NCBI GenBank assembly: GCA_019695115.1
Contig: JAIBAP010000003.1
Location: 62,001 to 126,000 of the forward strand
Source: Caldilineales bacterium
Lineage (GTDB): Bacteria; Chloroflexota; Anaerolineae; J102
DNA: 64,000 bases
Reading direction: 5' to 3'
Numbering within the stretch: the stretch's first letter is position 1; each line of letters starts with the position of its first letter. Positions 2,953 through 63,816 of this stretch are shown piece by piece. The notes below the pieces were generated by a model. It ran no database searches. It had not been told where the DNA came from and saw nothing but the letters and a program-made list of their open reading frames with translations. Position numbers and translations under genes: made by a program.

Positions 2953-2965
2953 CGACGACTTCGGC

Positions 2966-3649
2966 TCAATCGTACACCGCGCCGGCCATCTGCCCCAGCG
3001 CCGTGGGATTGAGGATAGTGATGCGCCGATAGCCCAATTCCACCCAATTCTCGCGCTTGAAATCGCGCAGAATGGCGCTGATCGTCTCGCGATAGGTGCC
3101 CAGGGTGTCGGCCAGCGCCTGATGGCTGATGCGAATCTGATCATCGCCGGCCAACCGGCTTTGGCGGACGATCTCCCCGGCCAGGCGTTCGGGCAAGCGC
3201 CGATAGGCCACATCTTCCAGCCGATTCTCGACTTGCGCCAGCCGCCGGCCAAAGGTGCGCAGCAGCCCTAGCCCGATGACGGGGTGACGTTCGATGAAGC
3301 CAGACGCCTGTTCGCGACTGAAGCGCCACACCGTACACGGCTCGATCGCCTGCACACAGACCTCGGCGGTAGGGCCTAGATCGACGATGGCATCCTCGCC
3401 AAAGACGGCGCCGGGCAACAGACGGGCCGTCACCATGCTGCGGCCTTCCTTGCTCGACACCACCAGTTGCACCATCCCGGCCACCAAGATGTAGAGGTGT
3501 TGTCTCAGTTCTTCAGGCGTGGCGATGCAATCACCCGGCGCCACCCGCAGGTTCGTCAGCGCCCGACCAAAGGCGGGGTCTTCGGCCGGAAGTTGGGCAA
3601 ACAAATCGGAGATCTGTTCGTTTGAAATCGTGTTGGTGAGGTCTTTCAT
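2966..3649 (-). CDS. Crp/Fnr family transcriptional regulator
   Basis: Predicted 227-residue regulator. Residues about 20-140 form a cyclic-nucleotide-binding-type beta barrel (LRQHLYILVAGMVQL, then GAVFGEDAIVD). The C-terminal winged helix-turn-helix carries ISHQALADTLGTYRETISAIL, the usual Crp recognition-helix arrangement. No cysteine cluster of the Fnr type is seen at the N-terminus. ATG 3649 gives a normal family length; an ATG at 3730 would add 27 residues and sits close to the predicted transcription start, so it cannot be excluded. The next gene is an ECF S component, so a role in sensing a transported metabolite or redox state and controlling uptake is plausible, but this is inference. 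Confidence 0.9.
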   Translation of the reverse strand: MKDLTNTISNEQISDLFAQLPAEDPAFGRALTNLRVAPGDCIATPEELRQHLYILVAGMVQLVVSSKEGRSMVTARLLPGAVFGEDAIVDLGPTAEVCVQAIEPCTVWRFSREQASGFIERHPVIGLGLLRTFGRRLAQVENRLEDVAYRRLPERLAGEIVRQSRLAGDDQIRISHQALADTLGTYRETISAILRDFKRENWVELGYRRITILNPTALGQMAGAVYD

Positions 3650-4444: not shown

Positions 4445-5113
4445 ATGCCCCACCATCCCTTCGCCTCCCTCCCTCCACGCGCCCTGCTGCGGCTGTTCTG
4501 GCTCGTCTTCGCCGGCACCGTCGCGGCCATGATCGTCATGCAGATGATCGGCCGCCCCTTGCAGACTTCAGCCGCCCCCATGGGCATCATCTCCTTCGAA
4601 TTCGCCCGCACCCCGGCCAACGCCCAGGCGATGGTGGACAGTTGGGACGCACTCGCCCGCACCCGCGCCGGCTTCAGCCTGGGCTTCGACTATCTGTTCA
4701 TGCCCCTCTACAGCACTGCCATCGGCCTGGCCTGTCTGTGGGCTGGGCGGGTGCTGCACCGTCGCGGCTGGCGGCTGGCCGGGCTGGGCGGCTGGCTGGC
4801 CTGGGGCCTGTGGCTGGCGGCCCTGTGCGATGCGGTCGAAAACCTGGCCCTCTGGCGGCTGCTGATCGCCCCGGCCGTCCCGCCCTGGCCCACCCTGGCC
4901 TGGTGGATGGCGACGGTCAAGTTCGCCCTCATCGCCCTCGGCTTCCTCTACTATCTGTTTGCCCTCCTCGCGCGGTTGGGGGGAGGGAAGACAGGTAGAC
5001 AAATAGACAGGTCGCAAGTCGCAAGTCGCAGGTCGCAAGTCGCAAGTCGCAGGTCGCAAGTCGCAAGTCGCAGAGCCTGTCCCTTCGCTCGGCTCAGGGC
5101 AGGCTCTGAGTGA
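4445..5113 (+). CDS. four-helix membrane protein with a repeat-derived C-terminus
   Basis: Predicted 222-residue membrane protein of unknown function. Four hydrophobic helices are visible (starting near LFWLVFAGTVAAMIV, YLFMPLYSTAIGLACL, LGGWLAWGLWLAALC and FALIALGFLYYLFALL). The last ~40 residues are not typical protein: SQVASRR occurs three times and is followed by ACPFARLRAGSE. This tail is the translation of a 7-bp tandem DNA array and of a palindromic repeat just after it (5011-5110), so the ancestral stop was probably close to 5000 and the reading frame now runs on into repeat DNA until the TGA at 5111. Confidence 0.7.
   Translation: MPHHPFASLPPRALLRLFWLVFAGTVAAMIVMQMIGRPLQTSAAPMGIISFEFARTPANAQAMVDSWDALARTRAGFSLGFDYLFMPLYSTAIGLACLWAGRVLHRRGWRLAGLGGWLAWGLWLAALCDAVENLALWRLLIAPAVPPWPTLAWWMATVKFALIALGFLYYLFALLARLGGGKTGRQIDRSQVASRRSQVASRRSQVASRRACPFARLRAGSE
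5011..5073. repeat. 7-bp tandem array GTCGCAA/GTCGCAG (9 units)
   Basis: Nine heptamers in perfect register. Every third unit is GTCGCAG rather than GTCGCAA, which creates a 21-bp higher-order period. The array encodes the SQVASRR tail of the membrane protein. The same unit family recurs in reverse complement at 24281-24322. Confidence 0.95.
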
Positions 5114-5121
5114 AACGAAGG
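5071..5121. repeat. palindromic element interrupting the heptamer array
   Basis: CAGAGCCTGTCCC (5071-5083) pairs with GGGCAGGCTCTG (5097-5108) with one bulged base, followed by GAGTGAAACGAAGGA. Heptamer DNA of the same family is found on both sides (ending at 5073, resuming at 5122), so the element looks inserted into the array. Its translation (ACPFARLRAGSE) is a pattern I associate with a widespread dispersed bacterial repeat; that recognition is from memory and untested. Confidence 0.75.
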
Positions 5122-5208
5122 ATCGCAAGTCGCAGGTGGCAGGTGGCAGGAATAACCAATAACCAATAACTGACGCCAAATCCGCAATCCGCATTTCGCA
5201 ATCCGCAC
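5122..5208. repeat. composite heptamer arrays upstream of the MoxR gene
   Basis: Three unit types follow one another: ATCGCAA-GTCGCAG-GTGGCAG-GTGGCAG (5122-5149), AATAACC three times (5151-5171), and TCCGCAA-TCCGCAT-TTCGCAA-TCCGCAC (5181-5208). The last type recurs at 10472-10520 and 45290-45310, each time upstream of a plus-strand gene. Confidence 0.9.
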
Positions 5209-5221
5209 TTCCCCCTTTCCC

Positions 5222-6157
5222 ATGCTCCAAGACTTCGCCCGCACCCTGCGCGCCAACATCGCCCGCGCCGTCATCGGCAAAGAGAATGTGGCCGATCTGG
5301 CCCTCATTGCCCTCCTCTGCGAAGGCCACATCCTGTTCGAGGACGTGCCCGGCATCGGCAAAACCACGCTGGCCAAAGCCCTGGCCCGCTCGTTGGCCTG
5401 CTCCTTCGCCCGCATCCAATTCACGCCCGACCTCCTGCCCTCGGATGTCACCGGCATCGCCTGGTACAATCAAAAGGCCCAGGAATTCGAATTCCGGCCC
5501 GGCCCCATCCTGGCCCAGGTCGTCCTCGCCGACGAGATCAACCGCGCCACCCCGCGCACCCAGTCGGCCTTGCTGGAAGCCATGCAAGAGCGCCAGATCA
5601 CCGTCGACCGCGAGACCTACCCCCTCCCTCGGCCCTTCCTCGTCCTTGCCACCCAGAACCCGATCGAGTTGGAGGGCACCTTCCCCCTGCCCGAAGCCCA
5701 ACTCGACCGCTTTCTGATCAAAGCCTCGCTCGGCTACCCCAGCGAAGCCGAAGAAAACACCATGCTACGCGAGTACGAACGCAGCGACCCCCTGACCGAC
5801 CTGGAGGCCGTTGTCAGCGCCGCTGAGGTCGTGGCGGCACAGCAGGCGGTGCGCGAAGTGCAGGTGGACGACGCCGTGCGCGATTATCTGGTGCGGGTGG
5901 TGCGCGCCACCCGCCAGCACCCAGCCGTCGATCTGGGCGCCAGCCCGCGGGGGACGCTGGCCCTCTTTCGCTCCTGCCAGGCTCGCGCCGCCCTCTCTGG
6001 CCGCAGCTATGTCCTGCCCGACGACGTGAAAGCCATGGCGCCCCATGTCCTCACCCATCGCCTGCACATCAGCCCGCAAACGCGGCTGCGCGGTCGCACC
6101 GCGCCCGAGGTGGTGGCCGAGGTGGTGGGCGAAGTGCCCACACCGGTGTTCAGTTGA
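5222..6157 (+). CDS. MoxR-family AAA ATPase
   Basis: Predicted 311-residue cytoplasmic ATPase of the MoxR clade of AAA+ chaperones. The Walker A motif is GIGKTT (44-49). The Walker B region VVLADEINRATPRTQSALLE is characteristic, followed by the sensor segment LATQNPIELEGTFPLPEAQLDRF and a C-terminal helical lid ending near RLRGRTAPEVVAEV. MoxR proteins are thought to help mature or activate partner proteins, often with the DUF58 (VWA-like) protein encoded next door. The DUF58 and DUF4129 genes follow with a 2-base gap and a 4-base overlap, so the three form an operon. Confidence 0.97.
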   Translation: MLQDFARTLRANIARAVIGKENVADLALIALLCEGHILFEDVPGIGKTTLAKALARSLACSFARIQFTPDLLPSDVTGIAWYNQKAQEFEFRPGPILAQVVLADEINRATPRTQSALLEAMQERQITVDRETYPLPRPFLVLATQNPIELEGTFPLPEAQLDRFLIKASLGYPSEAEENTMLREYERSDPLTDLEAVVSAAEVVAAQQAVREVQVDDAVRDYLVRVVRATRQHPAVDLGASPRGTLALFRSCQARAALSGRSYVLPDDVKAMAPHVLTHRLHISPQTRLRGRTAPEVVAEVVGEVPTPVFS

Positions 6158-6159
6158 CC

Positions 6160-7557
6160 ATGAGCAGCGGCCAGAGCGAACCGCCCCCGGCCAACCCCGG
6201 TCTGCGCCAGGTGTTCGGGCAGCGGCGGATCGACGTCGCTATCGAAGAACAATTCAGCGCCGCCTGGTTTGCCATTGCCCTGCTGCTCACCGTGGCCGGG
6301 CTGGCCCTGCGCCTCGATGCCCTGTTGACCATCGCCGCCGCCCTGCTGACCATTGCCGGCGTCAGTTGGTTGTGGAACCGGCTGGCCTTCTTTGGTCTGG
6401 ACTACCGGCGGCGCTTCTCGTTGCGCCGGGCCTTCGTCGGCGAAACGGTCGAGCTGGAACTCTCGGTCGCCAACCGCAAACTCCTGCCCCTCACCTGGCT
6501 GAGGGTGGCCGACATCTTCCCCACCGACCTGCCGCTGGCGGGAGCGACCATCGTCCGGCGGCACGACACCAACCTGGGCGAGATGAGCAGCTTTTGGACG
6601 CTGAAATGGCGCCAGCGGGCCAAACGCACCTTCTCCATCCAGGCCGTGCAGCGCGGCCTCTACCGTTTTGGCCCCTCCCGATTGGAAACCGGCGACCTCT
6701 TCGGGCTTTTCCACTCCGTGCACAAGCTGGATGACGAACAGACCCTGATCGTCTACCCCCAGGTCTTGCCCCTGACCCGCTTCGGCCTGCCGGCCAAAGA
6801 AGCCTTTGGCAATCTCCATTCCCCCCGGCTGACTTTCCCCGACCCCCTGCGCACCATCGGCGTGCGCGACTACCATCCCGAAGACGACTTCCGCCTGCTG
6901 CACTGGAAAGCCAGCGCCCGGCGGCAAGAACTTCAGACCAGGGTGCTGGAACCGGCCACCGCGCACAACCTGCTGGTGGCGCTCAACGTGGCCACCCTCG
7001 CCCAACACTGGCAGGGCATCCTGCCCGATGTCCTGGAGCAGACCATCAGCATCGCCGCCTCGGTCTGCTACTACGGCCTGGAGCAACGTTGGCCCACCGG
7101 CCTCATCGCCAACGGCGCCCTGCCTCGCTCCGACCAACCCCTCCGCCTGCTGCCCGGCCGCTCCCCCGGCCAGATCACCGCCATCCTGGAGATGCTGGCC
7201 GTGATCACCCCCTTCGTCACCGCCCCCATCGAAGACATGATCGCCGCCGAAAGCGCCCGCCTGCCCTGGGGCAGCACCCTGGTCGTGATCAGCGCCCTGG
7301 TCTCGCCCGCCCTGGCTGCCACCCTCTTCGACCTCAAACGCCGGGGACGGCGGCTGGTCCTGATCAGCCTCGACCCCGCCCCCTTGCCAGCCGACCTGCA
7401 CGACCTCCTCGTCTACCGCCTCGGGCGCGGCCGAGCAGAGACCATCGACCTCGGCCTGCCGGCGGTCGGGGCGAGCGAACTGCTCAGCCCCGCCCAGCGC
7501 CAACAACAGGCCATTCACGCCGCCGCCGTCCTCCTGGCCGGCTCATCCTCGTCATGA
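6160..7557 (+). CDS. DUF58 domain protein
   Basis: Predicted 465-residue protein with two N-terminal membrane helices (about residues 25-70), a beta-rich segment, and the DUF58 signature around RDYHPEDDFRLLHWKASARR. The C-terminal half resembles a von Willebrand A-like fold. DUF58 proteins are the usual partners of MoxR ATPases; the biochemical role is unsettled. A TTG at 6154 overlaps the moxR stop, but ATG 6160 is preferred. The 3' end overlaps the following gene by the ATGA sequence at 7554-7557, which suggests translational coupling. Confidence 0.93.
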   Translation: MSSGQSEPPPANPGLRQVFGQRRIDVAIEEQFSAAWFAIALLLTVAGLALRLDALLTIAAALLTIAGVSWLWNRLAFFGLDYRRRFSLRRAFVGETVELELSVANRKLLPLTWLRVADIFPTDLPLAGATIVRRHDTNLGEMSSFWTLKWRQRAKRTFSIQAVQRGLYRFGPSRLETGDLFGLFHSVHKLDDEQTLIVYPQVLPLTRFGLPAKEAFGNLHSPRLTFPDPLRTIGVRDYHPEDDFRLLHWKASARRQELQTRVLEPATAHNLLVALNVATLAQHWQGILPDVLEQTISIAASVCYYGLEQRWPTGLIANGALPRSDQPLRLLPGRSPGQITAILEMLAVITPFVTAPIEDMIAAESARLPWGSTLVVISALVSPALAATLFDLKRRGRRLVLISLDPAPLPADLHDLLVYRLGRGRAETIDLGLPAVGASELLSPAQRQQQAIHAAAVLLAGSSSS

Positions 7558-9014
7558 CCCCGTCCTCCCTGCTCGCTTTCAGCCGCTCCCTCCCCTGGCA
7601 GCGTCTCGGCATCTTGCTGGCGCTGGTGGGGATGGAGGTCTCGTGGCTGACGCCGCTGGTGTTGGGCTTCCAGCGCCAGCGTTGGGGCGTCCCGCCGGGC
7701 TGGTATCTGCTGGGGATGGCGGCCTTGATGCTGCTGATGATCGTCATCGCCGCTTTCCTCTCCTCGCGCCAACTTCAATCGCCCCGCTACGAGCTGACCA
7801 TCCTGGCCAGCCTCGTCCTCCTCGGCCTGGTCGTACTGCGGCTGTATGTCTTCTGGGGCGAACCGGCGCTGAGCCTGCGCTGGCTGGCCGACGCCTTCAT
7901 CACCAACAACCCGCGGCGCCTCGACTCCCTCCTCGTCCTGGCCACGCTCGGCTACCTGTGGTGGCGCAGCATCACCTTCTTGCAGCGCGAAGTCGGTTTC
8001 TTCACCATCGGTTACGATTTTCGCAAAGGCGTCTTGGGGCTGGCGGTCGGCGTCGCCGTCTACAACACCCTGGCCGGGCGCTCCGCCGCCGCCTTCGTCT
8101 ACAGCTTCTTCTTCTTCGGCCTGATCGCCATTGCCGCCGGCCGAGCCGAGGACAAAGCCCAGGTCAGCAGCCGCGGCCAGGCCTGGGGGCCAGGCTGGAT
8201 GGGCCTCGTGGCCGCGGCCAGCCTGGCCATGACCCTTCTCATCGCCCTCTTGCATCAGGCCTGGAGCCTGGCCGGTTTCACTCGCGCCGGCCGGGTCGCC
8301 GGCCCGGCCCTCCTCGCCCTCGCCCGCCTCCTGACCCCGGTCATCCTCTTCCTCCTCGGCCTGCTCGAACCACTGCTAGAGGCGCTGGTGGCCTTCCTGC
8401 AGCGGCTGCTCGGCCCCTTGTTCGCCGCCGCCGGCCAGATGCTGCCGACGGACCTAGCCGAAGGGCAGGCCATCGTCGTAGCCGAAGGCGAGGCGGCCAC
8501 ACGCTCGTTCGCCTGGCTGGAGCCGCTGTTTCTGGTCGGGCTGCCCTGCCTGCTGCTGGCCGGATTCCTGGTCCTGCTCGTCCTCCTGCTCCAACGCCGC
8601 CGCGCTCGCCGCCTGGCCGAAGTCGAAAACGAGGGCCGGGAAAGCGTCGCTGGCGCCGAAGCCGATGGCCTGGCCGGGTGGATGCAAGCCCGCTGGCGAC
8701 GCCTGCAAGAACTGGCCGGGCTGCTGGCCCGCTACGGCCCCGGCCGGCGCTTCTACGCCGCCCTCTCGGTGCGCCACATCTACGCCAACTTGCAGCGCCT
8801 GGCCGCCGCGCGCGGCTTCCCCCGCGACGAAGCCCAAACCCCCAACGACTACCTGCCCACGCTTCTGGCCGCCTTCCCCGGCCAAACCGGGGCCATCGCC
8901 CACATCACCGCCGCCTACAACGCCTTCGAGTACGGCCATGTCGCGGCCGGCGATGACGAAGTGGCCCAACTCCACGCCGCCTGGGAGTCCATCCGGCGGG
9001 CCGGGAGAGGATAG
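7554..9014 (+). CDS. polytopic membrane protein with C-terminal DUF4129 domain
   Basis: Predicted 486-residue protein. About seven hydrophobic helices occupy residues 10-260, another pair lies near 310-350, and the C-terminus is a cytosolic DUF4129-type domain (FYAALSVRHIYANLQRLAA through the AYNAFEYG segment). In many bacteria this domain is attached to a transglutaminase core; here the transglutaminase domain is absent, leaving a membrane anchor plus DUF4129. It is the third gene of the MoxR-DUF58 operon and starts inside the DUF58 stop codon. A role in envelope or secreted-protein maturation is likely but unproved. Confidence 0.88.
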   Translation: MTPSSLLAFSRSLPWQRLGILLALVGMEVSWLTPLVLGFQRQRWGVPPGWYLLGMAALMLLMIVIAAFLSSRQLQSPRYELTILASLVLLGLVVLRLYVFWGEPALSLRWLADAFITNNPRRLDSLLVLATLGYLWWRSITFLQREVGFFTIGYDFRKGVLGLAVGVAVYNTLAGRSAAAFVYSFFFFGLIAIAAGRAEDKAQVSSRGQAWGPGWMGLVAAASLAMTLLIALLHQAWSLAGFTRAGRVAGPALLALARLLTPVILFLLGLLEPLLEALVAFLQRLLGPLFAAAGQMLPTDLAEGQAIVVAEGEAATRSFAWLEPLFLVGLPCLLLAGFLVLLVLLLQRRRARRLAEVENEGRESVAGAEADGLAGWMQARWRRLQELAGLLARYGPGRRFYAALSVRHIYANLQRLAAARGFPRDEAQTPNDYLPTLLAAFPGQTGAIAHITAAYNAFEYGHVAAGDDEVAQLHAAWESIRRAGRG

Positions 9015-52713: not shown

Positions 52714-52757
52714 GCGACGCCAATTCCATCGCCGGCTGGCGTCGGAAGCAGAAGGGT

Positions 52758-52815
52758 GGGGTGTTGGATCGTAGATGGGCAGCGGAGGGCCGCTCCAGCC
52801 ACGAACCAACACCCC
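52758..52815. terminator. inverted repeat between convergent DUF427 and GH16 genes
   Basis: GGGGTGTTGG (52758-52767) and CCAACACCCC (52806-52815) form a perfect 10-bp stem with a 38-base interior. It may act as a bidirectional terminator; no T-run is present. Confidence 0.45.
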
Positions 52816-52830
52816 AAGAGGATCCACGCG

Positions 52831-55800
52831 TCAGGGAATGTAGACGACCGTGAGCGTGGCCGGCTGGGCCTGATAGCTTTCCAGGCTATCCATGTTCACA
52901 CGGCCGGCGGGGCCGCTGGTTTGGATGGCCAGGTAGCCCCGGCCGTCCCCCGGGTAGCCCCGGCCGTCCCCCGGGTAGCCCCGGCCGTCCCCCGCAGCCC
53001 AGGCCGCGACCTGCGACCGGGCATCGACCACAACCGTGGCCGGCGTGCTGGGCACGGCCAGGGCGGCGCCGGGGTTGTAGAAGCTCAGGGCTCCGGCGAG
53101 CACGTCGGCGCCGGTGACTGTGAGCGGGTCGAAGGCGCTGACGTTGGCCACCTGCACGGTCTTGCCCAGGGCGCCGCTCTTGTTCTCGACCCTGTGCAGG
53201 GTCAACTGGGCCGAGAGCAGCTGCACGCCGGCGGGCAGCTGGCTGCGGTCGAAGGCGAGGAGGATGTTGTCCAGCCCGGTGGTGCGGGAGGTGAGGATGG
53301 CGGCGGTGTTGTAGTTCACCAGGGGGGCGCCGGTGTTGACCCAGGTATCGGCCAGCAGCGGCAGGGTGATGGCGGCCGTCTCGACCACGGGCAGGGTGTT
53401 GGAACTGAAGGTTCCCTGCGGGGTGATCAGGCGGTGCTGCACGGCCCCGGCGCGGGCGCTGACCTCGACCTGGAAGCTGAAGGAGGCCGTCTGCTGATCG
53501 GCGATCTCCCCGGCCCAGGCCACGGCCACGACGCCAGGATGGGTCGCCTGCGCGGCCAGATCGTAGCCCATGGCGGCCAGTTGCCCGGCCGTGAGCGGGA
53601 AGGCGCCGTTGCTGGCGCTGCCGGCCACGTATTGCACCTCTGTATCCAGCGGCACGAGCAAGAAAGCGTCGTAGGCGGCGCCAGAGTAGTTGGTGGCTGC
53701 GGCCGCGACTGTGATCGTAGAGCCGGTGACCAGCGGGTCGGCGTCGGTGTGCTGGCTGATGCTGCCCAGCCAGGCCGGAATGGCGAGTTCTTCTTCCAGG
53801 CGCACCTGGTCGAGCCTGAACATGCCGGCGGCGCCATCGGGCAGGTCGAAGCCGTAGCCATGCACGGCGGTGAGGTCGAGGCCGTCATCGGGCGCGCCAG
53901 CGGGCTGCGCGGCGCTGCGATGGAAGAAAGCGAAGGGGAGTTCCACTTTCTGCCAGCCGGCCACATCATCCACGAAACTGGCCTGGAAACGCTCGGCCGT
54001 GTCCGCGGCCTGGTAGACGCGTACGTAATCGACCGCCAGGTTCTGCGGGAAGGTCATCCCCTCGGCGATGGGGCCGCCGAAGTTGCCGCCGATGGCCAGG
54101 TTGAGGATGAGATAGAAGGGATGGTTGTAGACCCACTCGTGCGGGGCCACGTCGGCGGGGGTGGCGTTGTGATAATTGACGCCATCGACGAACCAGTGGA
54201 TCTCGTCCGGCCCCCACTCCACGGCGAAGGTGTGGTAGTTGCCGGCCACGCCGCCGGGGAGGTTGAGCGTGGCGCCGAAGCCGGAGCCGCCGGAATAGCC
54301 CGGCCCGTGGATGGTGCCGAACACGTCGTTCGGGAACTTGCTGACGTATTCCATGATGTCGATCTCGCCCGATTGCGGCCAGCCGACTTCGTCGATATTC
54401 GTGCCCAGCATCCAGAAGGCGGGCCAGAGGCCGGCGGGGCCGGGCGGAACCAGGGCGCGGGCCTCGATGCGGCCATATTCGAATTCGTTCTTCTGGGCCG
54501 AGATCAGGCGGGCGGAGGTGTAGTCGCAGGGGCCGTACCAGCATTGGCGGGCGTCGCCATCGGCGGTCTCTTGCAGCGAGAGGATGAGGTTGCCGGCGCC
54601 ATCGTTGCTGGCGTTAGCCGGGTCGTCGCTGTAGAACTGGAATTCGCCGTTGCCCCAGCCGGGGATGCCGTACATGGTGCCATCGCCGATCTGGTGCGTC
54701 CACTTGTTCGGGTTGGGTGGCGTCCCCGCTGGCCCGTCGAATTCGTCGCTCCAGACCATGACCCAATCGGTGGCGGGCGTCTCGCCAGTGCTGGCGGCGA
54801 CGTTGTCCTGCAGTTCCACCGTGACCCGCTCGCCGTTGCCGGCGCCGTAGTACCAGAAGCTGAGACCGTCGTGGGCGCTCCAGTCCTGCGGCTGGGTGAA
54901 GGTGCGGGCGAAGCTGGCCGGCGCGGCGGTGGTATCGAACTCGCCGCTGAGCACGCCTTCATAGGCGTCCTGGCCGGGCCGGGCGGCGGCATCCCCAGCC
55001 ATCAACTCGCTGGCGGCCAGCGTCACATCGCCGGCGGCGGTGAAGGGCTGCCAGCCCTCGAAATCATCGATTAGGGTGGGGTCGACGGGGTCGTTGTCCT
55101 CGATTGTTACCAGCGCCCGGATCGAGAAGCCCAGGTCGGCGCCGGCAGGGTTGCGGAGGTTGAGCATGAGAGCGCGGTCGCCATCGTGCTTGCTGTTGTC
55201 GAAGCTGGCGACGCTGAAGCTGGCCTCGCTCTCGCCCGGCGCGAAGGTCAGTGTGCCGCTCACGGGCGTGAAGTCGCGACCGGGCCGGGCCGTGCTCTCG
55301 GCGGAAACGTAATCGACGCTGACGGTCTCGGTGGCGGCCCTGCTCAGGGCCACGGTCACATCCACGCTGGCGCCCTCGACCACGCTGTAGCTAATGGCCC
55401 CGAATTCGATTTCCAGCGGCGTGTCGCCGTCGCCGACCTTGCCGTAGAGGGTGACGTCATCGACGAAGTAGCTCTGGCTGCCCATATCCACCGCGCCAAA
55501 GCCGCCGATGGCGTAGCCCCAGACCTCATCCAGGGTCAGGCCGTCGTTGGGGGCGCCGTTGCCGATCTCTTTGCGGTGGAACTCGGAGAAGGGGATGGTG
55601 AAGAACTTCCAGCCCGTGAAGGTGTCGGGGATGTCCACCGACCAGCGTTCGGCGTCGTCGCGGGTGGAGCCAGGGTTGCGGTTCTCGGCGATGTCGACGA
55701 AGAGGACGCCGCCGGTGTTGTTGCCGTACAGCCAGAAGCAGATGCCTTCATAGCTCGACCAGTCTTGCGCCACCCAGGTATCGGCGGCCTCGTTGCTGAA

Positions 55801-58107
55801 GGCGTGGGTGGTGCCCGCCCACTGGCCGGAGCCGATGGTCAGGTCGAGTTGCAGCACAGTGTTGGGGTCGCTTGCGCCGGGCACGACGGCAGGCGGGGCC
55901 GTGGTCACGGTCACGGCCGCCGAGGCGGCAGGGTGATTCCAGGTCACAAAGCCGACGCCGTTGCCATCCGCATCTGTGCCCGCGGGCAGTTCGGCCAACT
56001 CGAAATCATCGACGACAGTGGTGCGCACGAGCAGGCCGACGTTGTCGACGAAGTAGCTCTGGCTGCCCATATCGACCGCGCCAAAGCCGCCGATGGCGTA
56101 GCCCCAGACCTCGTCCAGGGTCAGGCCGTCGTTGGGCGCGCCGTTGCCGATCTCTTTGCGGTGGAACTCGGAGAAGGGGATGGTGAAGAACTGCCAGCCG
56201 CTGAACGTGTCGGGGATGTCCACCGACCAGCGTTCGGCGTCGTCGCGGGTGGAGCCGGGGTTGCGGTTTTCGGAGATATCGACGAAGAGCACGCCGCCGG
56301 TGTTGTTGCCGTAAAGCCAGAGGCTGAGGCCCTCGTAGCTCGACCAGTCCTGCGCCACCCAGGTATCGGCGGCCTCGTTGCTGAAGGCGTGGGTGGTGCC
56401 CGCCCACTGGCCGGGGCCGATGGCCAGGTCGAGTTGCAGCACGGTGTTGGGGTCGGGCAAGCCGGGCACGGCGGCAGGCGGGGCAGTGGTCACGGTCACG
56501 GCCGCGGAGGCGGCGGGGTGATTCCAGGTGACGAAGCCGACGCCGTTGCCGTCCGCATCCGCGCCCGCGGGCAGTTCGGCCAGCTCGAAGTCATCGATCA
56601 GGACCGACTTGCCGGAGAGGATGGGGGCGTCGTTGTCGGCGATGGTGAGCGTGGCCTCGCTGCGAGCGCCCAGGCTGGCTCCGTTCGGATTGGCCAGGGT
56701 GACGACCACGGTCTCGTCCTCCTCCTCGCTGGCGTCGTCGATGGCGGCGAGGACAAGGGTCTGCTCGGTGACGCCGGGCGGGAAGGTGAGGGTGGAAACC
56801 GGCGGGGTGGTGAAGTCATCGCCGGCGGTGGCCGTGCCGCCCGTGACTGCGAAATCAACCGTCACGGTGGTGGCGCTGGCGGCGCTGAGGGCGACAACCA
56901 GGCTGGCCTCGCCGCCTTCCTCGACCGCGTAGTCGCGTTGGGCGAAGCCGACGGTGAGGGCCGGTTGGCCGTCACCGAAGAGGGCGACATGGTCGAGATA
57001 GGTGGTGCGCTGGCCGCCGGGCAGGGCCAGGGCGTAGGCTTGCACCTCGGTGAGGGTGAGGCCGTCATCAGGCGCGCCGCCGGGTTGGTAGGCATAGTCG
57101 CGGAAAAAGGCCGCCCAGGGAAGGCTGAGGAAGCGCCAGCCGGCGAAGTTGTCCACGAATTCGTAGGCGAAGCGCTCGGCGGAGTCGCCGGGCACAGCCG
57201 GATTGGGGTTGTCGCTGAGGATGAGGCGATACGTGCCGCCGCTGTTGCCGCCTCTGAACCAGAAGCCCAGGCCGTTGTAGCCGCTCCAATCCTGGCCGCC
57301 GAGGTTGTTGCCGGCGCCCGCGCCCCAGCCGGCGGAGTTGTAGGCGATCTCCAGCACGTTGTTGGGTTTCAGGCCGGGCACGGTGTCGGTGGGCACGATG
57401 GTGGTGTTGACGAAGGTTCCGCTGCCGTAGTCGCCGTATTGGAACCAGGTGGGGGGCAGTTCCTGTTCGAAATCGTTCACCGCCTGGAATGTGACCAGGC
57501 GCACCTCGTCGAGGGCGATGGTGGCGGCGCCGTTGGGTAGGGCCAGGGCGTAGGCCTGCACCTCGGTGAGGGTGAGGCCGTCGTCGGGGGCGCCGCCGGG
57601 CTGGTAGGCCCAGTCGCGCACAAACGCACCCCAGGGGATGAGGATGTGCCGCCAGCCAGCGCTGTTGTCGGCAAATTCGTGGACGAAGCGCTCGGCCGAG
57701 TCGCCGGGCACGGCGGGGTTGGGGTTGTCGCTGAGGATGAGGCGGAAGGTGCCGCCGCTGGCCGCGCCGCGGAACCAGAAGCTGAAGCCGTCATACTGGC
57801 TCCAATCCTGGCCGCCGAGGTTGTTGCCCGTGCCCGCGCCCCAGCCGGCGGAGTTGTAGGCAATCTCCAGCACGTGGTTGGGATTCAGGCCGGGCACGGT
57901 GTCGGTGGCGACGATGGTGGGGTTGATAAAGGTTCCGCTGCCGTAGTCGCCGTATTGGAACCAGGTGGCGGGCAGGCCGCTCTCGAAATCATCGAGGACG
58001 GGGGGATCGCCGGCAGGCTGGGCGAGGGCGAGCGGGCCGGCCAGGGCCAGCAGCAGGAACAGGCCGAACAACAAGGAAAGGAAGAGGAGGCGATGGCGCT
58101 GAGGCAT
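52831..58107 (-). CDS. secreted multi-module GH16 beta-glucanase with glucan-binding repeats
   Basis: Predicted 1758-residue secreted protein with a signal peptide (cleavage near ALAQPAG, about residue 30). Modules in order: two similar CBM11/CIA30-like jelly rolls (about 35-205, 209-380), Calx-beta (383-492), two nearly identical jelly rolls (503-690, 698-888), Calx-beta (897-1006), and a fifth jelly roll (1010-1438) interrupted at about 1115-1366 by a GH16 catalytic domain with GEIDIMEYV (Glu1248 nucleophile, Glu1253 acid/base) and LWPAFWMLG. Then come a beta-rich linker domain and a DNRLRE-like domain (about 1565-1758) containing three GDGRGYP-type repeats. GH16 members of this type cut beta-1,3- or mixed-linkage glucans such as laminarin. 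ATG 58107 is set by the signal peptide. No sortase or other cell-wall anchor is seen. Confidence 0.92.
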   Translation of the reverse strand: MPQRHRLLFLSLLFGLFLLLALAGPLALAQPAGDPPVLDDFESGLPATWFQYGDYGSGTFINPTIVATDTVPGLNPNHVLEIAYNSAGWGAGTGNNLGGQDWSQYDGFSFWFRGAASGGTFRLILSDNPNPAVPGDSAERFVHEFADNSAGWRHILIPWGAFVRDWAYQPGGAPDDGLTLTEVQAYALALPNGAATIALDEVRLVTFQAVNDFEQELPPTWFQYGDYGSGTFVNTTIVPTDTVPGLKPNNVLEIAYNSAGWGAGAGNNLGGQDWSGYNGLGFWFRGGNSGGTYRLILSDNPNPAVPGDSAERFAYEFVDNFAGWRFLSLPWAAFFRDYAYQPGGAPDDGLTLTEVQAYALALPGGQRTTYLDHVALFGDGQPALTVGFAQRDYAVEEGGEASLVVALSAASATTVTVDFAVTGGTATAGDDFTTPPVSTLTFPPGVTEQTLVLAAIDDASEEEDETVVVTLANPNGASLGARSEATLTIADNDAPILSGKSVLIDDFELAELPAGADADGNGVGFVTWNHPAASAAVTVTTAPPAAVPGLPDPNTVLQLDLAIGPGQWAGTTHAFSNEAADTWVAQDWSSYEGLSLWLYGNNTGGVLFVDISENRNPGSTRDDAERWSVDIPDTFSGWQFFTIPFSEFHRKEIGNGAPNDGLTLDEVWGYAIGGFGAVDMGSQSYFVDNVGLLVRTTVVDDFELAELPAGTDADGNGVGFVTWNHPAASAAVTVTTAPPAVVPGASDPNTVLQLDLTIGSGQWAGTTHAFSNEAADTWVAQDWSSYEGICFWLYGNNTGGVLFVDIAENRNPGSTRDDAERWSVDIPDTFTGWKFFTIPFSEFHRKEIGNGAPNDGLTLDEVWGYAIGGFGAVDMGSQSYFVDDVTLYGKVGDGDTPLEIEFGAISYSVVEGASVDVTVALSRAATETVSVDYVSAESTARPGRDFTPVSGTLTFAPGESEASFSVASFDNSKHDGDRALMLNLRNPAGADLGFSIRALVTIEDNDPVDPTLIDDFEGWQPFTAAGDVTLAASELMAGDAAARPGQDAYEGVLSGEFDTTAAPASFARTFTQPQDWSAHDGLSFWYYGAGNGERVTVELQDNVAASTGETPATDWVMVWSDEFDGPAGTPPNPNKWTHQIGDGTMYGIPGWGNGEFQFYSDDPANASNDGAGNLILSLQETADGDARQCWYGPCDYTSARLISAQKNEFEYGRIEARALVPPGPAGLWPAFWMLGTNIDEVGWPQSGEIDIMEYVSKFPNDVFGTIHGPGYSGGSGFGATLNLPGGVAGNYHTFAVEWGPDEIHWFVDGVNYHNATPADVAPHEWVYNHPFYLILNLAIGGNFGGPIAEGMTFPQNLAVDYVRVYQAADTAERFQASFVDDVAGWQKVELPFAFFHRSAAQPAGAPDDGLDLTAVHGYGFDLPDGAAGMFRLDQVRLEEELAIPAWLGSISQHTDADPLVTGSTITVAAAATNYSGAAYDAFLLVPLDTEVQYVAGSASNGAFPLTAGQLAAMGYDLAAQATHPGVVAVAWAGEIADQQTASFSFQVEVSARAGAVQHRLITPQGTFSSNTLPVVETAAITLPLLADTWVNTGAPLVNYNTAAILTSRTTGLDNILLAFDRSQLPAGVQLLSAQLTLHRVENKSGALGKTVQVANVSAFDPLTVTGADVLAGALSFYNPGAALAVPSTPATVVVDARSQVAAWAAGDGRGYPGDGRGYPGDGRGYLAIQTSGPAGRVNMDSLESYQAQPATLTVVYIP
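52934..52996. repeat. 21-bp coding tandem repeat (3 copies) in the GH16 gene
   Basis: Three in-frame copies of a 21-bp unit encode GDGRGYP, GDGRGYP and GDGRGYL inside the C-terminal DNRLRE-like domain. The first two are identical at DNA level, indicating recent slippage or duplication. Confidence 0.9.
55444..56601. repeat. near-identical duplicated module (about 0.57 kb x2) in the GH16 gene
   Basis: The DNA for residues 503-690 (56601-56038) and 698-888 (56016-55444) is almost identical, including long shared blocks such as the TWNHPAASAAVTVTTAPPA and EFHRKEIGNGAPNDGLTLDE codons. This is a recent internal tandem duplication. Confidence 0.9.
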
Positions 58108-58189
58108 GGGTGAAAATCCTTGAGTGATGGGGGATGGTGGAAACAAGTCGGATGGAAGTCGGCGGCGCCAATAGAGGCACGGCGCGCGG

Positions 58190-59149
58190 CTACGCCGGTT
58201 CGGTCGCATCGATCTGTTGCATGAACGCTTTGGGCCGGCGATTTTCATCGTACAGGCCCCAATGCTTTTCAGGTTCCAGGGCGTCGGGGGAGCCTTTCCA
58301 GGGTTCATCGAAGGCTTCGAAGATGAAGGTCAAGATCCTGTCTGCCTGCGTCCACTGCCTGAGTTGCTGAAGGTAACTGGTTTGTAGCGCCTCGGAGGCG
58401 TTCGTGGGGTCGATGCCGCGCCCATTGGAGGCCGTGGGCCACCCTGCTTCGGTGATGATCACAGGCTGGTCGGGATAGCGCCTGGCAACCGCGTCGTAAT
58501 TGGCCTTGCTATAGTCGAGCGCCTCGGCAATCGTGCGATACTCCCACACGGGATAGGTGTGCACCGAGATGAAATCCAATTCCGCCGCCAGCGGGCCGAG
58601 CTTGGTGATCCAGGGGACATAGTTGTCGCAAAATGTCACCGGCTGCCCGACGGCAGCCTTGATCCGGCGAACATAGCCGATCAGGCTGTCCACCGAGACC
58701 AGGTGATCGCTCCATTCCACCGCCGCTTCATTGCCGGCGGAGACCGAAAAGACACTATCGGGATAGCGCCTGGCCAGATCGATGAGCCGGTCGACTTGTC
58801 TGCTGTTTGCCCGGCGATTGGCGCGCAACGTGCGCGGGCTGAAGTCTGCTCCCCACGGGCAATTGGGGTTGCTCATTTCCGCCGCCATGTCCACCCCCAA
58901 CATGACCCGCATGGCCAGGCCTTCGTCCTGGATGACTTGCAGCGTTTTCTCGGCGTGCTCGCTGCAATCATACAAGCGGATCAAGGACCAGTTTTTGGCC
59001 AATAGCAGCAGATCTTGTCTGATTTCTTCATAACTTGGATAGATGGCCTGGCGAGGGTCCTGGCCATCACGATAGCCGGAATAGCAGATCGCCCAACCAT
59101 CGGAGATAATTGCCGAAATTGGTGTCTTTTCTGCCAACGAACTAGACAT
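58190..59149 (-). CDS. GH17-like glucanase/transglycosidase (second copy)
   Basis: Predicted 319-residue (beta/alpha)8-barrel enzyme of GH17 type. The acid/base is in VSAGNEAAVEW (Glu141) and the nucleophile in VIITEAGWPTASNGRG (Glu234). LIRLYDCSEHAEKTLQVIQ and FISVHTYPVWE are typical GH17 strands, and the EAFDEPWKG ending fits. GH17 enzymes cleave or rearrange beta-1,3-glucans. No signal peptide is seen, so it is probably cytosolic. ATG 59149 overlaps the preceding GH17 gene by 8 bases, implying coupling. It is clearly diverged from its neighbour, so the pair may have different products. Confidence 0.88.
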   Translation of the reverse strand: MSSSLAEKTPISAIISDGWAICYSGYRDGQDPRQAIYPSYEEIRQDLLLLAKNWSLIRLYDCSEHAEKTLQVIQDEGLAMRVMLGVDMAAEMSNPNCPWGADFSPRTLRANRRANSRQVDRLIDLARRYPDSVFSVSAGNEAAVEWSDHLVSVDSLIGYVRRIKAAVGQPVTFCDNYVPWITKLGPLAAELDFISVHTYPVWEYRTIAEALDYSKANYDAVARRYPDQPVIITEAGWPTASNGRGIDPTNASEALQTSYLQQLRQWTQADRILTFIFEAFDEPWKGSPDALEPEKHWGLYDENRRPKAFMQQIDATEPA

Positions 59150-60065
59150 ATTTCAATCTGCCCTCCGCATCCATAAGCCCCCAATAGGCCCCTACATCGC
59201 CTTCATCAGCTGTTTTCCAGTTTTCGTCGAAAGCCGAGAAATAGAACATCTCGATGCCCTGCTCCTCGGCCCATTGATAGGCGTTGATGAAATAGCGAAG
59301 GGCGCTTTCGTAAGAAGGCGTTGCCTCGCGCTGGCCCGATCCGAGATTGGGCCAGCCTGTCTCGCTGATGACCACCTTTTTGCCTTTGGCCGCCCCGACC
59401 GCCTGCCGATACATCTCCTTCATGTAGACCAGGGCGTGCGCGGCGGGATAGCCCTCCCAGAAGGGATAGCAGTTGGCAAAAATCACATCGCAGGCAGCGC
59501 TGACGCGTGGGTGATCCACGAATAGAAAATACGCGTCCACATATCCCACCGGCACGCCCGGCGCCCCGGCTTTGGCCCGCGCGATGGCGTCGATCAGTTC
59601 ATCTTCTGGCAGCTCATCCCGCAGCAAGACTTCATTGCCGATGGCCAGCAGGTTGGCGTGTCCTGCCCTGGCAACAGCGATGGCGTTCTGTATTTCCTGT
59701 TCATTCTGGTCGCGGTCTTCTCCCAACCATGCCCCCACCAGCGTCTTCAGCCCATACGCCGTGGCCAGGCGGGGGATCAACTCATTGCCTTTGGTGCAGG
59801 AGAAGATACGGATCCAGTGGACATAGGGCTGGACAAGGCGGAGGCGTGCGCTGATCTGCGCCTCGTCGATGTGCGCGCCAGGCCCTTGTCCTTCCACGTA
59901 GGGACTGAAGCAGAGGCCATGGATTTTGCGTTCCAGGATGTCGCCCACCAGGGCTTTCAGTTCGGCGATGGAATGACTGGCGACGTCGATCCCCGCCAAC
60001 GATCGATAGGGATAGGCTCTTCTGGTCACTTCGCTTTCAACTCCGTTCTTTCTGCTGGGACCCAT
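59142..60065 (-). CDS. GH17-like glucanase/transglycosidase (first copy)
   Basis: Predicted 307-residue GH17-type barrel. The acid/base is in LAIGNEVLLRDELPEDELI (Glu145) and the nucleophile in VVISETGWPNLGSGQ (Glu235). GLCFSPYVEGQGPGA near the N-terminus and YFSAFDENWKTADEGDVGAYWGL at the C-terminus are characteristic of bacterial GH17. No signal peptide is evident. The start is uncertain: ATG 60065, GTG 60068, or a GTG about 12 codons further in (before TRRAYPYRS, with GGAG upstream). It follows a long palindrome after the phosphorylase gene. Confidence 0.9.
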   Translation of the reverse strand: MGPSRKNGVESEVTRRAYPYRSLAGIDVASHSIAELKALVGDILERKIHGLCFSPYVEGQGPGAHIDEAQISARLRLVQPYVHWIRIFSCTKGNELIPRLATAYGLKTLVGAWLGEDRDQNEQEIQNAIAVARAGHANLLAIGNEVLLRDELPEDELIDAIARAKAGAPGVPVGYVDAYFLFVDHPRVSAACDVIFANCYPFWEGYPAAHALVYMKEMYRQAVGAAKGKKVVISETGWPNLGSGQREATPSYESALRYFINAYQWAEEQGIEMFYFSAFDENWKTADEGDVGAYWGLMDAEGRLKYV

Positions 60066-60090
60066 CACCGGCAGGCATGGTTCTTGCGCC

Positions 60091-60201
60091 GTAACTGCTC
60101 AGCCTGTCTGGATTGTTGCCACGAATTGCACGAATTTGACGAATTTTGCTTATGATCATTCGTGTAATTCGTGTAATTCGTGGCAGAGGCTGAGTAGTTA
60201 C
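60091..60201. repeat. 111-base nested palindrome between phosphorylase and GH17 genes
   Basis: Outer arms GTAACTGCTCAGCCT (60091-60105) and AGGCTGAGTAGTTAC (60187-60201) match at 14 of 15 positions. Inner arms beginning TGCCACGAATT (60117) and ending AATTCGTGGCA (60185) extend the pairing with 9-bp periodic CGAATT repeats. The phosphorylase stop codon (60198-60200) lies inside the right outer arm. Confidence 0.9.
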
Positions 60202-63200
60202 CTTGCGCCTAGGCCGGTGACCTGCACGCGTACAACCTCTCCGTCGCGCTGCAAGAGATGCCGCGTCGTCGCCGCATCCAGGCAATGACTCGACATCCTG
60301 GTGGAGCGACCGTTGCGGTAGACGACTTCGATCTGTTGCTCGCCGCCACGCTGATAGACGATCGGCGTCTGGCAGAAGGTGAAGACCAGTGAGCCGGGGG
60401 GAAGCGACAGGGTGGTGGCATCTCCCTGCGGGTTGAAACAGGTGAATTCGTGCTCTGTGGGCAGGAACTCGTCTGGGTGCAGCAGGGTGGGCGCAAAGCA
60501 GAGCCGCCCTTGCTGCAATCTGACGCCCAGTTCCCCCCATCGGCTCAGGATGCCTTCCTTGACCTGGCCGGTCATCCCCGGCTGGCTGGCGCCGCCGCCC
60601 ATGGGCGTGTGCGAATAGGGATCGGTGGGGAAGGCGCCGTAGTTGAGCGGCGTCTTGTTGAAGCCGATGCCGGCGCGGATGTCATCATAGGCCGCGGCCA
60701 GGGCCTCGATCACTCCCGCCTCGGCGCCGAGGTCTACGGCTTGCTGGTAGCATTCCTGCGCGGCCAGCAACAGCTTCGAGACCATGTGCCAGTAGACGCT
60801 GCCCAGGCCCTCGTAGGCGAAGAAGGTGCCCGAACGCCCGGTGAAGGTGTGATGGTCGAAGGTGGCTTCGAACAGGTCGAGTATGAACGCCCGTTCCGCC
60901 GCGGCCGGCCCGGCGTAGGCCGGCTCCTGGGCCAGCGCATCCAACACGCGGGCCACATCGCCGGCGTTGCGAAAGGCGCCGTGGAAATGGTAGGCGCCGG
61001 CCGCATCGCGGATGAGCAGCCGCCTGTCGTTCTGGGCGGCGAGCGCTGCCACCAGGACCGAAGCGCGCACTTTTTCCGCTGGTACATGGTTCTTCTGCAG
61101 GAAGCGGGGCAACTGGCGGTGGGGGTAGAGCAGGTAGGAATGCTGGTCGGGGCGATAAAGCTCGCTCTGGCGCAGGCTGCGCAACAGGGTGAGCGCCTCC
61201 TCTGGCGCCAACATGCCGGAGGAGAGGATGGCCACCTGGCCCTCCAACATCACGTACAGGCGGCCGATGCCCGCTTCTTCTGGGCGCAGATGCAGGGTGT
61301 TGTAGCTGTGATACAGCCCATCGGCGCGGCGATTGCAGCGCAGCGTCTGCTCGATGTAGGCCAGGGCCAGGGCCAGAAAGTCGGCGAGCGTGTGGCGGGG
61401 GAGCGTCGCCTGGGCGGGGGGCAGGCCATCCCGGTAGACAGCCGTACGATAGGCGGTGGCCGCCATGCCCAGCGCATCCATCATCCCCCGCCGCTCGTGG
61501 TCGCTGAAGCCGGCGGCCAGGCTCTGCCGGCGCTGATCGAGGATGGCGTGGACATCCTCCAGCAGTTCCGCCACCGCCGCATGGACGGGGAAGGCGTCGA
61601 TCTCGGCCTGCGCCAACAACTCCTGCCAGAAAACGATGAAACGGCGCAGATAGGCCACGGTGACCACCGACAGCCCCTTGCCCACCAGGGCGTTGTTGGC
61701 GTCGTTCCATTCCGGGCGCTGCGTGTTCATCCAGATGCCGCCTTCGGGCGCCAGGTTGGTGAGCTTGGCCAGCAGCAGCGTCAGCAGTTTTTCCGTCATC
61801 GTGGCGTGGATGACGGCGCCATCGGGGCCGCGCAGCAGGCGGGCATCGGTGCCCAGGGTCGCGAGATCGGCGGTAATGGCCTCATCGCTCTCGTGATCGA
61901 ACTCGATCGTGTCCTGCCAGTTGGCCAGCATCTCGGTATAGGGGCGCAGGCGGTAGGGCACGTTGGCGTAGGCGAAGATGGGGCGGTTCCACAGCGCCGC
62001 CAGCGCGCCGGGGCGCACATGCTCGGCGATTTCCAGCAGTTTTTGCAGATAGATGATCTGGTGATCGCTCCAATAGCCGATGTTGGCCCAGGGATTGTCC
62101 GGCTCCGGCGTTTCCCACTCGACGCCGTCGCGGGTGACGCGGTAGGGGTTGTAGCCATCGACGGTGGTGGCGTTGAGGAAGCGGGCCAGCATGCCCTCGC
62201 CAAAACCGGGGAAACTGAGGGCCAGCGGCTCCCAGTTCTGGAAGATATCGCGCCAGTTGCCCTGGAAGTCGAAGCGCCGCCTGCCATCCGGCTGGCGCAG
62301 GTTGATGGAGAAGCTGTTCCAGGGCCGGCTGGGGTCGCCGTGCCGCCGGCTGAAGGTCAGGGGCAGGTACTCGTAGCACAGCCGGATCAGGTCGGGCGCG
62401 CCTGCCTCGGCCGCGCGCTGGTACAGGGTCTGGATGGCCAGTTGCTTCGGCAGGGCGTCGAACCAGTCCCGATGCCGGGCCAGCACCTCGCGATTGCGCG
62501 TCTGGACGAAATCGAGCAGGTCGGCGCGGTCGATGCGATAGTTCTGCACGAAGATGCCGCCGCGCATGATGTTGAAGAGGACGTTGGCGTAGTGATAGCT
62601 GGTGGTCGTCGCCTGCGCGGTCAGTTGCAGGGCATCGGCTGCCGCGGCCAGCCGCACCAGTTCCTCGGCGCCGGCGGCGATGTCCGCTTCGATCGCGGCG
62701 GCGATCTGCGATGGCTCCTGGCCCAGGAGCTGGCGCAGGGCGGCGATGGCGGCGCTGTCCTGGTTCACATCGGCGACCAGTCGCCACTGGCGTTCCTGCA
62801 CCGCCGGCAAGACGAAATCGGCCTGGACGAAGTAGGCGCCGGCCCTCCCGCACACATCCTCCTCCGGCCTGATCGCTCCGCCCTGCCGGAAGGCATCGAC
62901 CTGTTCCGGGCTGAGCAGATGCCGGGCATTCTCCAGCCCCGTCTGCCAGACCACGGTCGCTTGCAGCGATTCGCTCGGCTCGGCCCGGTCGGTGAGGGTG
63001 GCGCTGAGGGCGAAGAGGCCCAGCCCGGTGGCGGGGTCGAGTTCGTTGCGTTTGTAGGCGTTCAGCAGGTTGCTGAGGGTGTTTTGCAACAGCGGGGTGG
63101 CGCCAAAAGGCAGGATGTTTTGCAGGCCGTCCAGCAGCTCGACCTGGCAATCCTCCCGCCCCTGGTTGTGCAGCCAGCAGGCGCGGACGAAGCCGAAGCG

Positions 63201-63671
63201 CTCGCCGGTGTGCCAGGCGCTGCGCAGCCGCAGTTGCAGATCGTGGTTGATCTCCTCGAAGACCAGTTTGTTGCCGTAGATGTTCTTATAGAGATGGCGT
63301 TCGCAGCGGTAGACGCCGGCGTAGCGCGGCGAAAACGGCTCCCACAGGTAGGTGCGCCCCTGCCGGGTCAGGCGCAGGATGGTTTTGGGGCCGGTCAGCT
63401 CGGCATGGGCGGTGATCTTGTCCACCGTTTCGTAGGGAAACAGGGCCGAGTCGGCGTTGACCCGCCCGGCCGAGAGGCCGCCGGAGCTGGAGATGAACAG
63501 CCAGTGGTCGCCGCTGCTCACCAGGCTCATGAAAAAGGGCGGCATCTGGTCATAGTGCGAGATGCGGTAGTAGGTCTCGCCGAACAGCTGCACGAACTCC
63601 CCCGTCACCGTTTTGGACTTGTCGATCAGCGGCGTGTTGCCGATCCAGAGTGGGGTGGTTGCGTGGGTCAT
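60198..63671 (-). CDS. clan GH-Q (GH94/GH149/GH161-like) beta-glucan phosphorylase
   Basis: Predicted 1157-residue cytosolic enzyme. The N-terminal ~330 residues are beta-rich (YYRISHYDQMPPFFMSLVSSGDHWLFISS and SAGRVNADSALFPYETVDKI), followed by a helical (alpha/alpha)6-type barrel: YHYANVLFNIMRGG, FQGNWRDIFQNWEPLALSFPGF, GYWSDHQIIYLQKLLEIAE and PEWNDANNALVGKGLSVV. The WND (655-657) corresponds to the catalytic-aspartate region of GH94 phosphorylases, making Asp657 the candidate acid. The large size fits GH149 or GH161 beta-1,3-glucan phosphorylases better than cellobiose phosphorylase. It would release glucose-1-phosphate from beta-glucan oligosaccharides. ATG 63671 has GAGGA upstream. The neighbouring GH17 and GH16 genes support a beta-1,3-glucan substrate. 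Confidence 0.85.
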   Translation of the reverse strand: MTHATTPLWIGNTPLIDKSKTVTGEFVQLFGETYYRISHYDQMPPFFMSLVSSGDHWLFISSSGGLSAGRVNADSALFPYETVDKITAHAELTGPKTILRLTRQGRTYLWEPFSPRYAGVYRCERHLYKNIYGNKLVFEEINHDLQLRLRSAWHTGERFGFVRACWLHNQGREDCQVELLDGLQNILPFGATPLLQNTLSNLLNAYKRNELDPATGLGLFALSATLTDRAEPSESLQATVVWQTGLENARHLLSPEQVDAFRQGGAIRPEEDVCGRAGAYFVQADFVLPAVQERQWRLVADVNQDSAAIAALRQLLGQEPSQIAAAIEADIAAGAEELVRLAAAADALQLTAQATTTSYHYANVLFNIMRGGIFVQNYRIDRADLLDFVQTRNREVLARHRDWFDALPKQLAIQTLYQRAAEAGAPDLIRLCYEYLPLTFSRRHGDPSRPWNSFSINLRQPDGRRRFDFQGNWRDIFQNWEPLALSFPGFGEGMLARFLNATTVDGYNPYRVTRDGVEWETPEPDNPWANIGYWSDHQIIYLQKLLEIAEHVRPGALAALWNRPIFAYANVPYRLRPYTEMLANWQDTIEFDHESDEAITADLATLGTDARLLRGPDGAVIHATMTEKLLTLLLAKLTNLAPEGGIWMNTQRPEWNDANNALVGKGLSVVTVAYLRRFIVFWQELLAQAEIDAFPVHAAVAELLEDVHAILDQRRQSLAAGFSDHERRGMMDALGMAATAYRTAVYRDGLPPAQATLPRHTLADFLALALAYIEQTLRCNRRADGLYHSYNTLHLRPEEAGIGRLYVMLEGQVAILSSGMLAPEEALTLLRSLRQSELYRPDQHSYLLYPHRQLPRFLQKNHVPAEKVRASVLVAALAAQNDRRLLIRDAAGAYHFHGAFRNAGDVARVLDALAQEPAYAGPAAAERAFILDLFEATFDHHTFTGRSGTFFAYEGLGSVYWHMVSKLLLAAQECYQQAVDLGAEAGVIEALAAAYDDIRAGIGFNKTPLNYGAFPTDPYSHTPMGGGASQPGMTGQVKEGILSRWGELGVRLQQGRLCFAPTLLHPDEFLPTEHEFTCFNPQGDATTLSLPPGSLVFTFCQTPIVYQRGGEQQIEVVYRNGRSTRMSSHCLDAATTRHLLQRDGEVVRVQVTGLGAR

Positions 63672-63725
63672 GGGAGGAATGTCCTCATTGATAGGTGTCT
63701 GGCTAAAGAGATAATCCTCGGTCCT

Positions 63726-63816
63726 GAAACGTGATGCGTGAGGCGTGAGGCGGGAGGCGTGATGCGTGAGGCGTGATGCGTGAGGCGTGAGGCGTGAGGC
63801 GTGATACGTGAGGCGT
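63726..63816. repeat. 7-bp array GAGGCGT/GATGCGT (13 units) upstream of the phosphorylase
   Basis: Thirteen heptamers in register (minus-strand reading TCACGCC). In sense orientation they match the middle part of the 39140-39286 array, and both lie in the presumed 5' leader of their gene. Confidence 0.93.

Follow-up and report, generated by a model that had tools for sequence, protein, structure and literature searches.

The window, by which is meant the whole 64,000-nucleotide stretch of Caldilineales DNA that was analysed, contains the tail-end gene of a same-strand cluster that encodes, in order, a hybrid sensor-regulator, an ABC solute-binding protein, two permeases, two GH16 proteins, a phosphorylase, two GH17 proteins and the multidomain protein described below (52831-58308, minus strand, 1825 aa). 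The adjacent upstream gene encodes a GH17 family protein (58190-59149, minus strand, 319 aa), and beyond it on the same strand are a second GH17 family protein (59142-60068, 308 aa) and a homologue of beta-1,3-oligosaccharide phosphorylase of the GH149 type (60198-63674, 1158 aa), which matches the solved enzyme 6hq6 with 1165 bits. A phosphorylase homologue is also located near relatives of the multidomain gene in five other genomes (L126 and L039, which belong to one genome, L041, L042, L046 and L048). The hybrid protein (1193 aa; L119:13511-17092 on contig C3, outside the window) combines a LacI-type sugar-binding domain (Peripla_BP) with histidine kinase, receiver and AraC domains, and is likely to be the regulator of the cluster. 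The presence of beta-1,3-glucanases, a phosphorylase and an importer together points to beta-1,3-glucan as the substrate, and from its gene content the locus looks like a putative beta-1,3-glucan utilisation operon. Very long antisense orfs on the plus strand (52756-55074, 55186-57540 and 60450-63734, of 772, 784 and 1094 aa) were not counted as genes because they are expected in GC-rich coding DNA.

The probable true start of the multidomain protein is Met68 at 58107, directly followed by a hydrophobic leader that resembles a signal peptide, and on this reading the protein is probably exported. Residues are numbered here from the beginning of the longest orf; the numbering of the first-pass annotation starts at Met68. 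The domain order is CBM11-CBM11-Calx-beta-CBM11-CBM11-Calx-beta-[CBM11 N-half / GH16 / CBM11 C-half]-tail, and a Pfam search of the whole orf returned CBM_11 (295.7 bits in six stretches), Calx-beta twice and Glyco_hydro_16. All domains being on the minus strand, CBM11 module 1 (residues 103-275, 57484-58002) is supported by Pfam, an AlphaFold2 model and a fold match, and modules 2 (residues 276-445, 56974-57483), 3 (residues ~569-764, 56017-56604) and 4 (residues ~765-970, 55399-56016) by Pfam and self-BLAST; these four are intact. The two Calx-beta domains (residues ~446-562, 56623-56973, and residues ~971-1077, 55078-55398) were placed by Pfam. Module 5 consists of an N-half (residues 1078-1177, 54778-55077) with strands up to residue 91 of the model described below, an inserted GH16 catalytic domain (residues 1178-1434, 54007-54777) with the motif GEIDIMEY at 54346-54369, and a C-half that begins with ADTAERF (residues 1435-1508, 53785-54006). 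The C-terminal tail (residues 1509-1825, 52834-53784) includes a DNRLRE-like domain (residues ~1653-1774) that scores slightly under the NCBIfam cut-off, and a short repeat, GDGRGYP, occurs in three copies (the last being GDGRGYL) in this region, at 52831-53000 of the window.

The first-pass annotation had described four intact CBM11 modules and a fifth that is split around a complete GH16 domain, and two kinds of search agree with it. When the modules of the protein were compared with each other by BLAST, residues 1-95 of module 1 matched module 5 before the GH16 domain and residues 103-171 matched it after the GH16 domain (53% identity, E 4e-17), such that just ~7 loop residues of the intact module are exchanged for ~267 residues and the two halves of module 5 are complementary, without overlap. 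The Pfam CBM_11 model matches module 5 in two stretches with 70.0 bits (gathering cut-off 27), and all 30 of the 30 nested relatives searched match it at E 0.01 or better. On the minus strand the GH16 domain ends at 54007 and the C-half starts at 54006; the interval originally given for the arrangement (54010-55080) covered the N-half and the GH16 domain but left the C-half outside.

The nested module (434 residues) was modelled with AlphaFold2 on the basis of 30 aligned natural sequences; the model has a mean pLDDT of 92.2 and a pTM of 0.89, with both CBM11 halves mostly above a pLDDT of 90. Strands at 71-79 and 83-91 are followed by the GH16 domain (~106-356) and then by strands at 362-370, 373-381, 405-411 and 417-428. 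The corresponding model of intact module 1 (pLDDT 82.7, pTM 0.82), which matches the CBM11 of Clostridium thermocellum (CtCBM11, 6r31) with a Z score of 17.1 in a fold search, has strands at 72-80 and 85-92, a loop at 93-103, and strands at 104-111, 115-123, 148-155 and 160-170; the hairpin loop thus has 11 residues in module 1 and ~270 in module 5. The match list of a fold search with the nested module was taken up by GH16, and the likeness of the split module to CBM11 is one of strand order and strand lengths shared with intact module 1 rather than of superposed structures. In the model, GH16 takes the place of a single hairpin loop and the strand order of the CBM11 jelly roll is kept, so that a single, uninterrupted jelly roll of CBM11 type is predicted for the two halves together. 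A predicted structure in which the halves do not form one jelly roll had been named beforehand as the outcome that would speak against a catalytic domain seated in one loop of its own binding module; the model shows the opposite. The linkers at both ends of GH16 are short and confidently ordered (pLDDT about 95-97), from which the orientation of the catalytic domain is probably fixed, provided that the protein is as rigid in solution as in the model.

The inserted domain scores 74.5 bits with Pfam Glyco_hydro_16 (cut-off 22) and about 241 bits with laminarinases of Thermotoga, and endo-beta-1,3-glucanase 2hyk is at the top of its matches to beta-1,3-glucanases (Z 36.6). The catalytic motif E-x-D-x-x-E is present as GEIDIME, and all 30 nested GH16 domains that were aligned have both glutamates and the aspartate, so an active enzyme is to be expected from the sequence. 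Mixed-linkage glucan can also be cut by enzymes of subfamily GH16_3. The subfamily motif is WPA...WXX...WPX, and WPAFWMLGTNIDEVGWPQ of the sequence fits it apart from a Q at the third X, which is outside the residues listed (PMC6827312). The nested protein is probably an endo-beta-1,3-glucanase that acts on laminarin-like polymers.

A search for other CBM11-GH16-CBM11 proteins, which the first-pass annotation had recommended, revealed the same nesting in the same loop of 36 distinct proteins after removal of duplicates, including the one in the window (34 from Anaerolineae and two from Agromyces), and such recurrence excludes chance. Full-length matches with 48-88% identity extend across many families of Anaerolineae (a relative from another Caldilineales MAG, L039, has 87% identity) and are also found in Agromyces luteolus, Agromyces bracchium and one actinobacterial MAG. 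A further nested copy beyond the 36, in the actinobacterial MAG UBA1383 (L048), is broken within GH16 over two overlapping frames (4477-6768 and 6689-8437), which may be due to a sequencing error or indicate a pseudogene. The C-terminal junction is near-constant among the nested relatives, and the C-half has the conserved features FxRSxxQPxGAPxDGL and VWGYGF. One subclade (L034, L035, L036, L045, L046 and probably L037) has a C-half that is missing the AERF strand motif and GAPxDGL and is otherwise kept, indicating that the host module is still undergoing remodelling there.

The host modules form one clade with respect to 59 intact modules from the same proteins (support 100/98), and the nested GH16 domains likewise fall into a single clade (SH-aLRT 96). 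This clade is joined, with a support of 94, by one further Chloroflexota GH16 and by the GH16 domains of other Anaerolineae (L120-L124) that follow intact CBM11 arrays in tandem order. Nesting therefore probably originated once, and repeated independent insertions are unsupported. Separate trees of the N-half and the C-half, which bear on an origin from two modules, had weak resolution. As the trees are unrooted, the direction of change is our inference; the simplest history is that the tandem order gave way to the nested order, followed by vertical descent and transfer to Actinomycetota. Convincing flanking CBM11 halves were found, even with lax thresholds, for none of the 78 other GH16 orfs of loci L049-L118 (the nearest case, L057, reaches 4.4 bits only), in a scan of genome contigs that retained the 80 best loci and may have missed rarer nested cases. 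Two loci of this set (L053 and L054), from MAGs that carry the labels Competibacteraceae and Longilinea, hardly differ in their GH16 sequences, which probably reflects a misbinned contig.

Module 5 is classed as CBM11 by descent and fold, and its binding of glucan is putative. Members of the CBM11 family bind beta-1,3-1,4- or beta-1,4-glucan, and in CtCBM11 we take Tyr22, Tyr53 and Tyr129 to be the aromatic residues of the ligand cleft. In a sequence alignment, the equivalent positions are occupied by Tyr, Trp and Tyr in modules 1 and 2, and the Trp at position 53 is also present in modules 3 and 4; in module 5 they read Ala, Pro and a gap, with no aromatic. Of 57 intact modules, 56 have an aromatic residue at position 53; of 28 full-length host modules none does, or five if slippage by one residue is allowed. 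The intact modules are themselves very diverse at positions 22 and 129 and differ from CtCBM11 at several of its ligand positions, so the argument rests on position 53. The loss by the host of a cleft aromatic that its intact sisters retain favours a role as a mount, with binding by the upstream modules: module 5 may be a scaffold rather than a glucan binder, and glucan is probably bound by modules 1-4. The idea that nesting fixes the active site relative to a bound glucan, put forward in the first-pass annotation, thus holds in one part, the fixed orientation of GH16 suggested by the linkers of the model, and lacks support in the other, binding by the host.

The reading that we favour with fair confidence is that the protein is the endo-beta-1,3-glucanase of the operon, that its GH16 domain occupies a loop of module 5 through an event of single origin, and that the host module serves mainly as a rigid mount. 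The four intact CBM11 modules would keep the enzyme on glucan while the nested GH16 domain cuts what is presumed to be beta-1,3-glucan, and the oligosaccharides would be processed by the GH16 and GH17 proteins, the ABC importer and the phosphorylase of the operon, in an order and at cellular locations that are conjectural. The ancestor would have had a related GH16 domain after a CBM11 array, which a single move brought into nested order, and the nested gene would then have passed to some Actinomycetota. The host module has since lost its cleft aromatics, and its main function now is most likely to give GH16 a rigid hold where the binding array ends.

Alternatively, the host may be a mere clamp for folding or stability that arose by a chance intragenic rearrangement and brings no gain over tandem CBM11-GH16. 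This seems rather unlikely: a single origin is compatible with a neutral event, and the tandem relatives L120-L124, of the same class and with a related GH16 domain after intact CBM11, persist, but the nesting has been kept across many families of Anaerolineae and in Actinomycetota with its C-terminal junction hardly changed. Another explanation, which we consider unlikely, is that the cleft of the host module still binds glucan and that nesting sets the distance of GH16 from the chain that is held, so that the same chain is bound and cut. One end of the insertion loop adjoins, in the alignment, the position of CtCBM11 Asp99 (presumably a ligand contact), which would place it on the edge of the cleft, the linkers are short and ordered in the model, and the conserved motifs of the C-half may include new ligand contacts; the host may even carry a new binding surface. 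Against binding in the ancestral cleft are the uniform absence of the position 53 aromatic from the full-length hosts, the absence from module 5 of the equivalents of Tyr22 and Tyr129 that modules 1 and 2 possess, and the shortening of the C-half in one subclade. That the split is an artefact, either a chimeric assembly (conceivable a priori with repeated modules in one gene) or unrelated CBM11 fragments beside GH16 that do not form one domain, is scarcely credible and practically ruled out by the fact that 36 distinct proteins, taken from separate assemblies, share these junctions, by the complementarity of the halves and by the confidence of the model.

Some host modules contain a second insert in another loop of the N-half, either a helical-looking segment (L042 at 5395-6153, L029 and apparently L022) or a different segment of ~100 residues (L030 at 2476-3075, L023 and L031); a Pfam search of these extra inserts of L042 and L030 gave no match. 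Inserts in two loops of one module suggest that this CBM11 lineage is tolerant of insertions. It is a tentative and somewhat doubtful extension of the rigid-mount reading that the jelly roll has changed from a binding module into a dedicated mount for inserts, with GH16 in one loop of every member and a second, unrelated domain in another loop of some members. In this state it would build a composite surface beside the GH16 cleft and alter the action of GH16 on polymeric beta-1,3-glucan.

CAZyme annotation views modules as beads on a string, an order that this family breaks, and split CBMs are liable to be miscounted as fragments by annotation tools. Once formed, the nested order was maintained in different families and on both sides of a phylum boundary. 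The nested GH16 domains and their tandem relatives of the same class are a natural pair with which the effect of rigid CBM-enzyme geometry on polymer degradation could be tested, and the design of insertion fusions could take the nested architecture as a ready-made template.

Among known systems, the GH16_3 laminarinases 2hyk, 3atg, 3azx and 4dfs share the fold, the catalytic motif and close sequence with the insert, but their solved chains are lone catalytic domains; to our knowledge none of them is an insert in a CBM. CtCBM11 (from Lic26A-Cel5E of C. thermocellum; 1v0a, 6r31) belongs to the same family as the intact modules and the host halves and has their fold, whereas in the host module GH16 breaks the sequence in two and the cleft aromatics are gone. 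The tandem proteins L120-L124 of Anaerolineae have one or more intact CBM11 modules and a closely related GH16 domain, but GH16 follows the last CBM11. Discontinuous nesting is likewise found in SusG (CBM58 inside GH13) and in Xyn10C/Pm25 (CBM4 domains inside GH10), with the roles reversed, since there it is the CBM that is inserted in the catalytic domain (PMC7848910). A survey of GH16 subfamilies names neither CBM11 nor insertions (PMC6827312), and no report of GH16 inside CBM11 was found in the open-licence literature, though subscription papers may exist; to this extent the first-pass annotation was right to regard the arrangement as undescribed. There is nevertheless a direct precedent for the principle in BoPDA of Bacteroides ovatus, in which crystal structures show a CE4 domain inserted in a CBM, the two sequence pieces of a beta-sandwich CBM folding as one domain around the catalytic domain (PMC11713874), and the same relationship is found here by sequence and predicted structure. 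BoPDA differs in that its enzyme class is another, its CBM, assigned to CBM2b, has ~84 aa, no activity was detected in the assays of that study and the arrangement was called unique to that enzyme (PMC11713874), whereas here a GH16 domain with an intact catalytic motif lies in a CBM11 module throughout a conserved protein family. Insertion of a catalytic domain in a CBM is therefore already known from BoPDA; what appears to be new is the conserved nesting of GH16 in CBM11.
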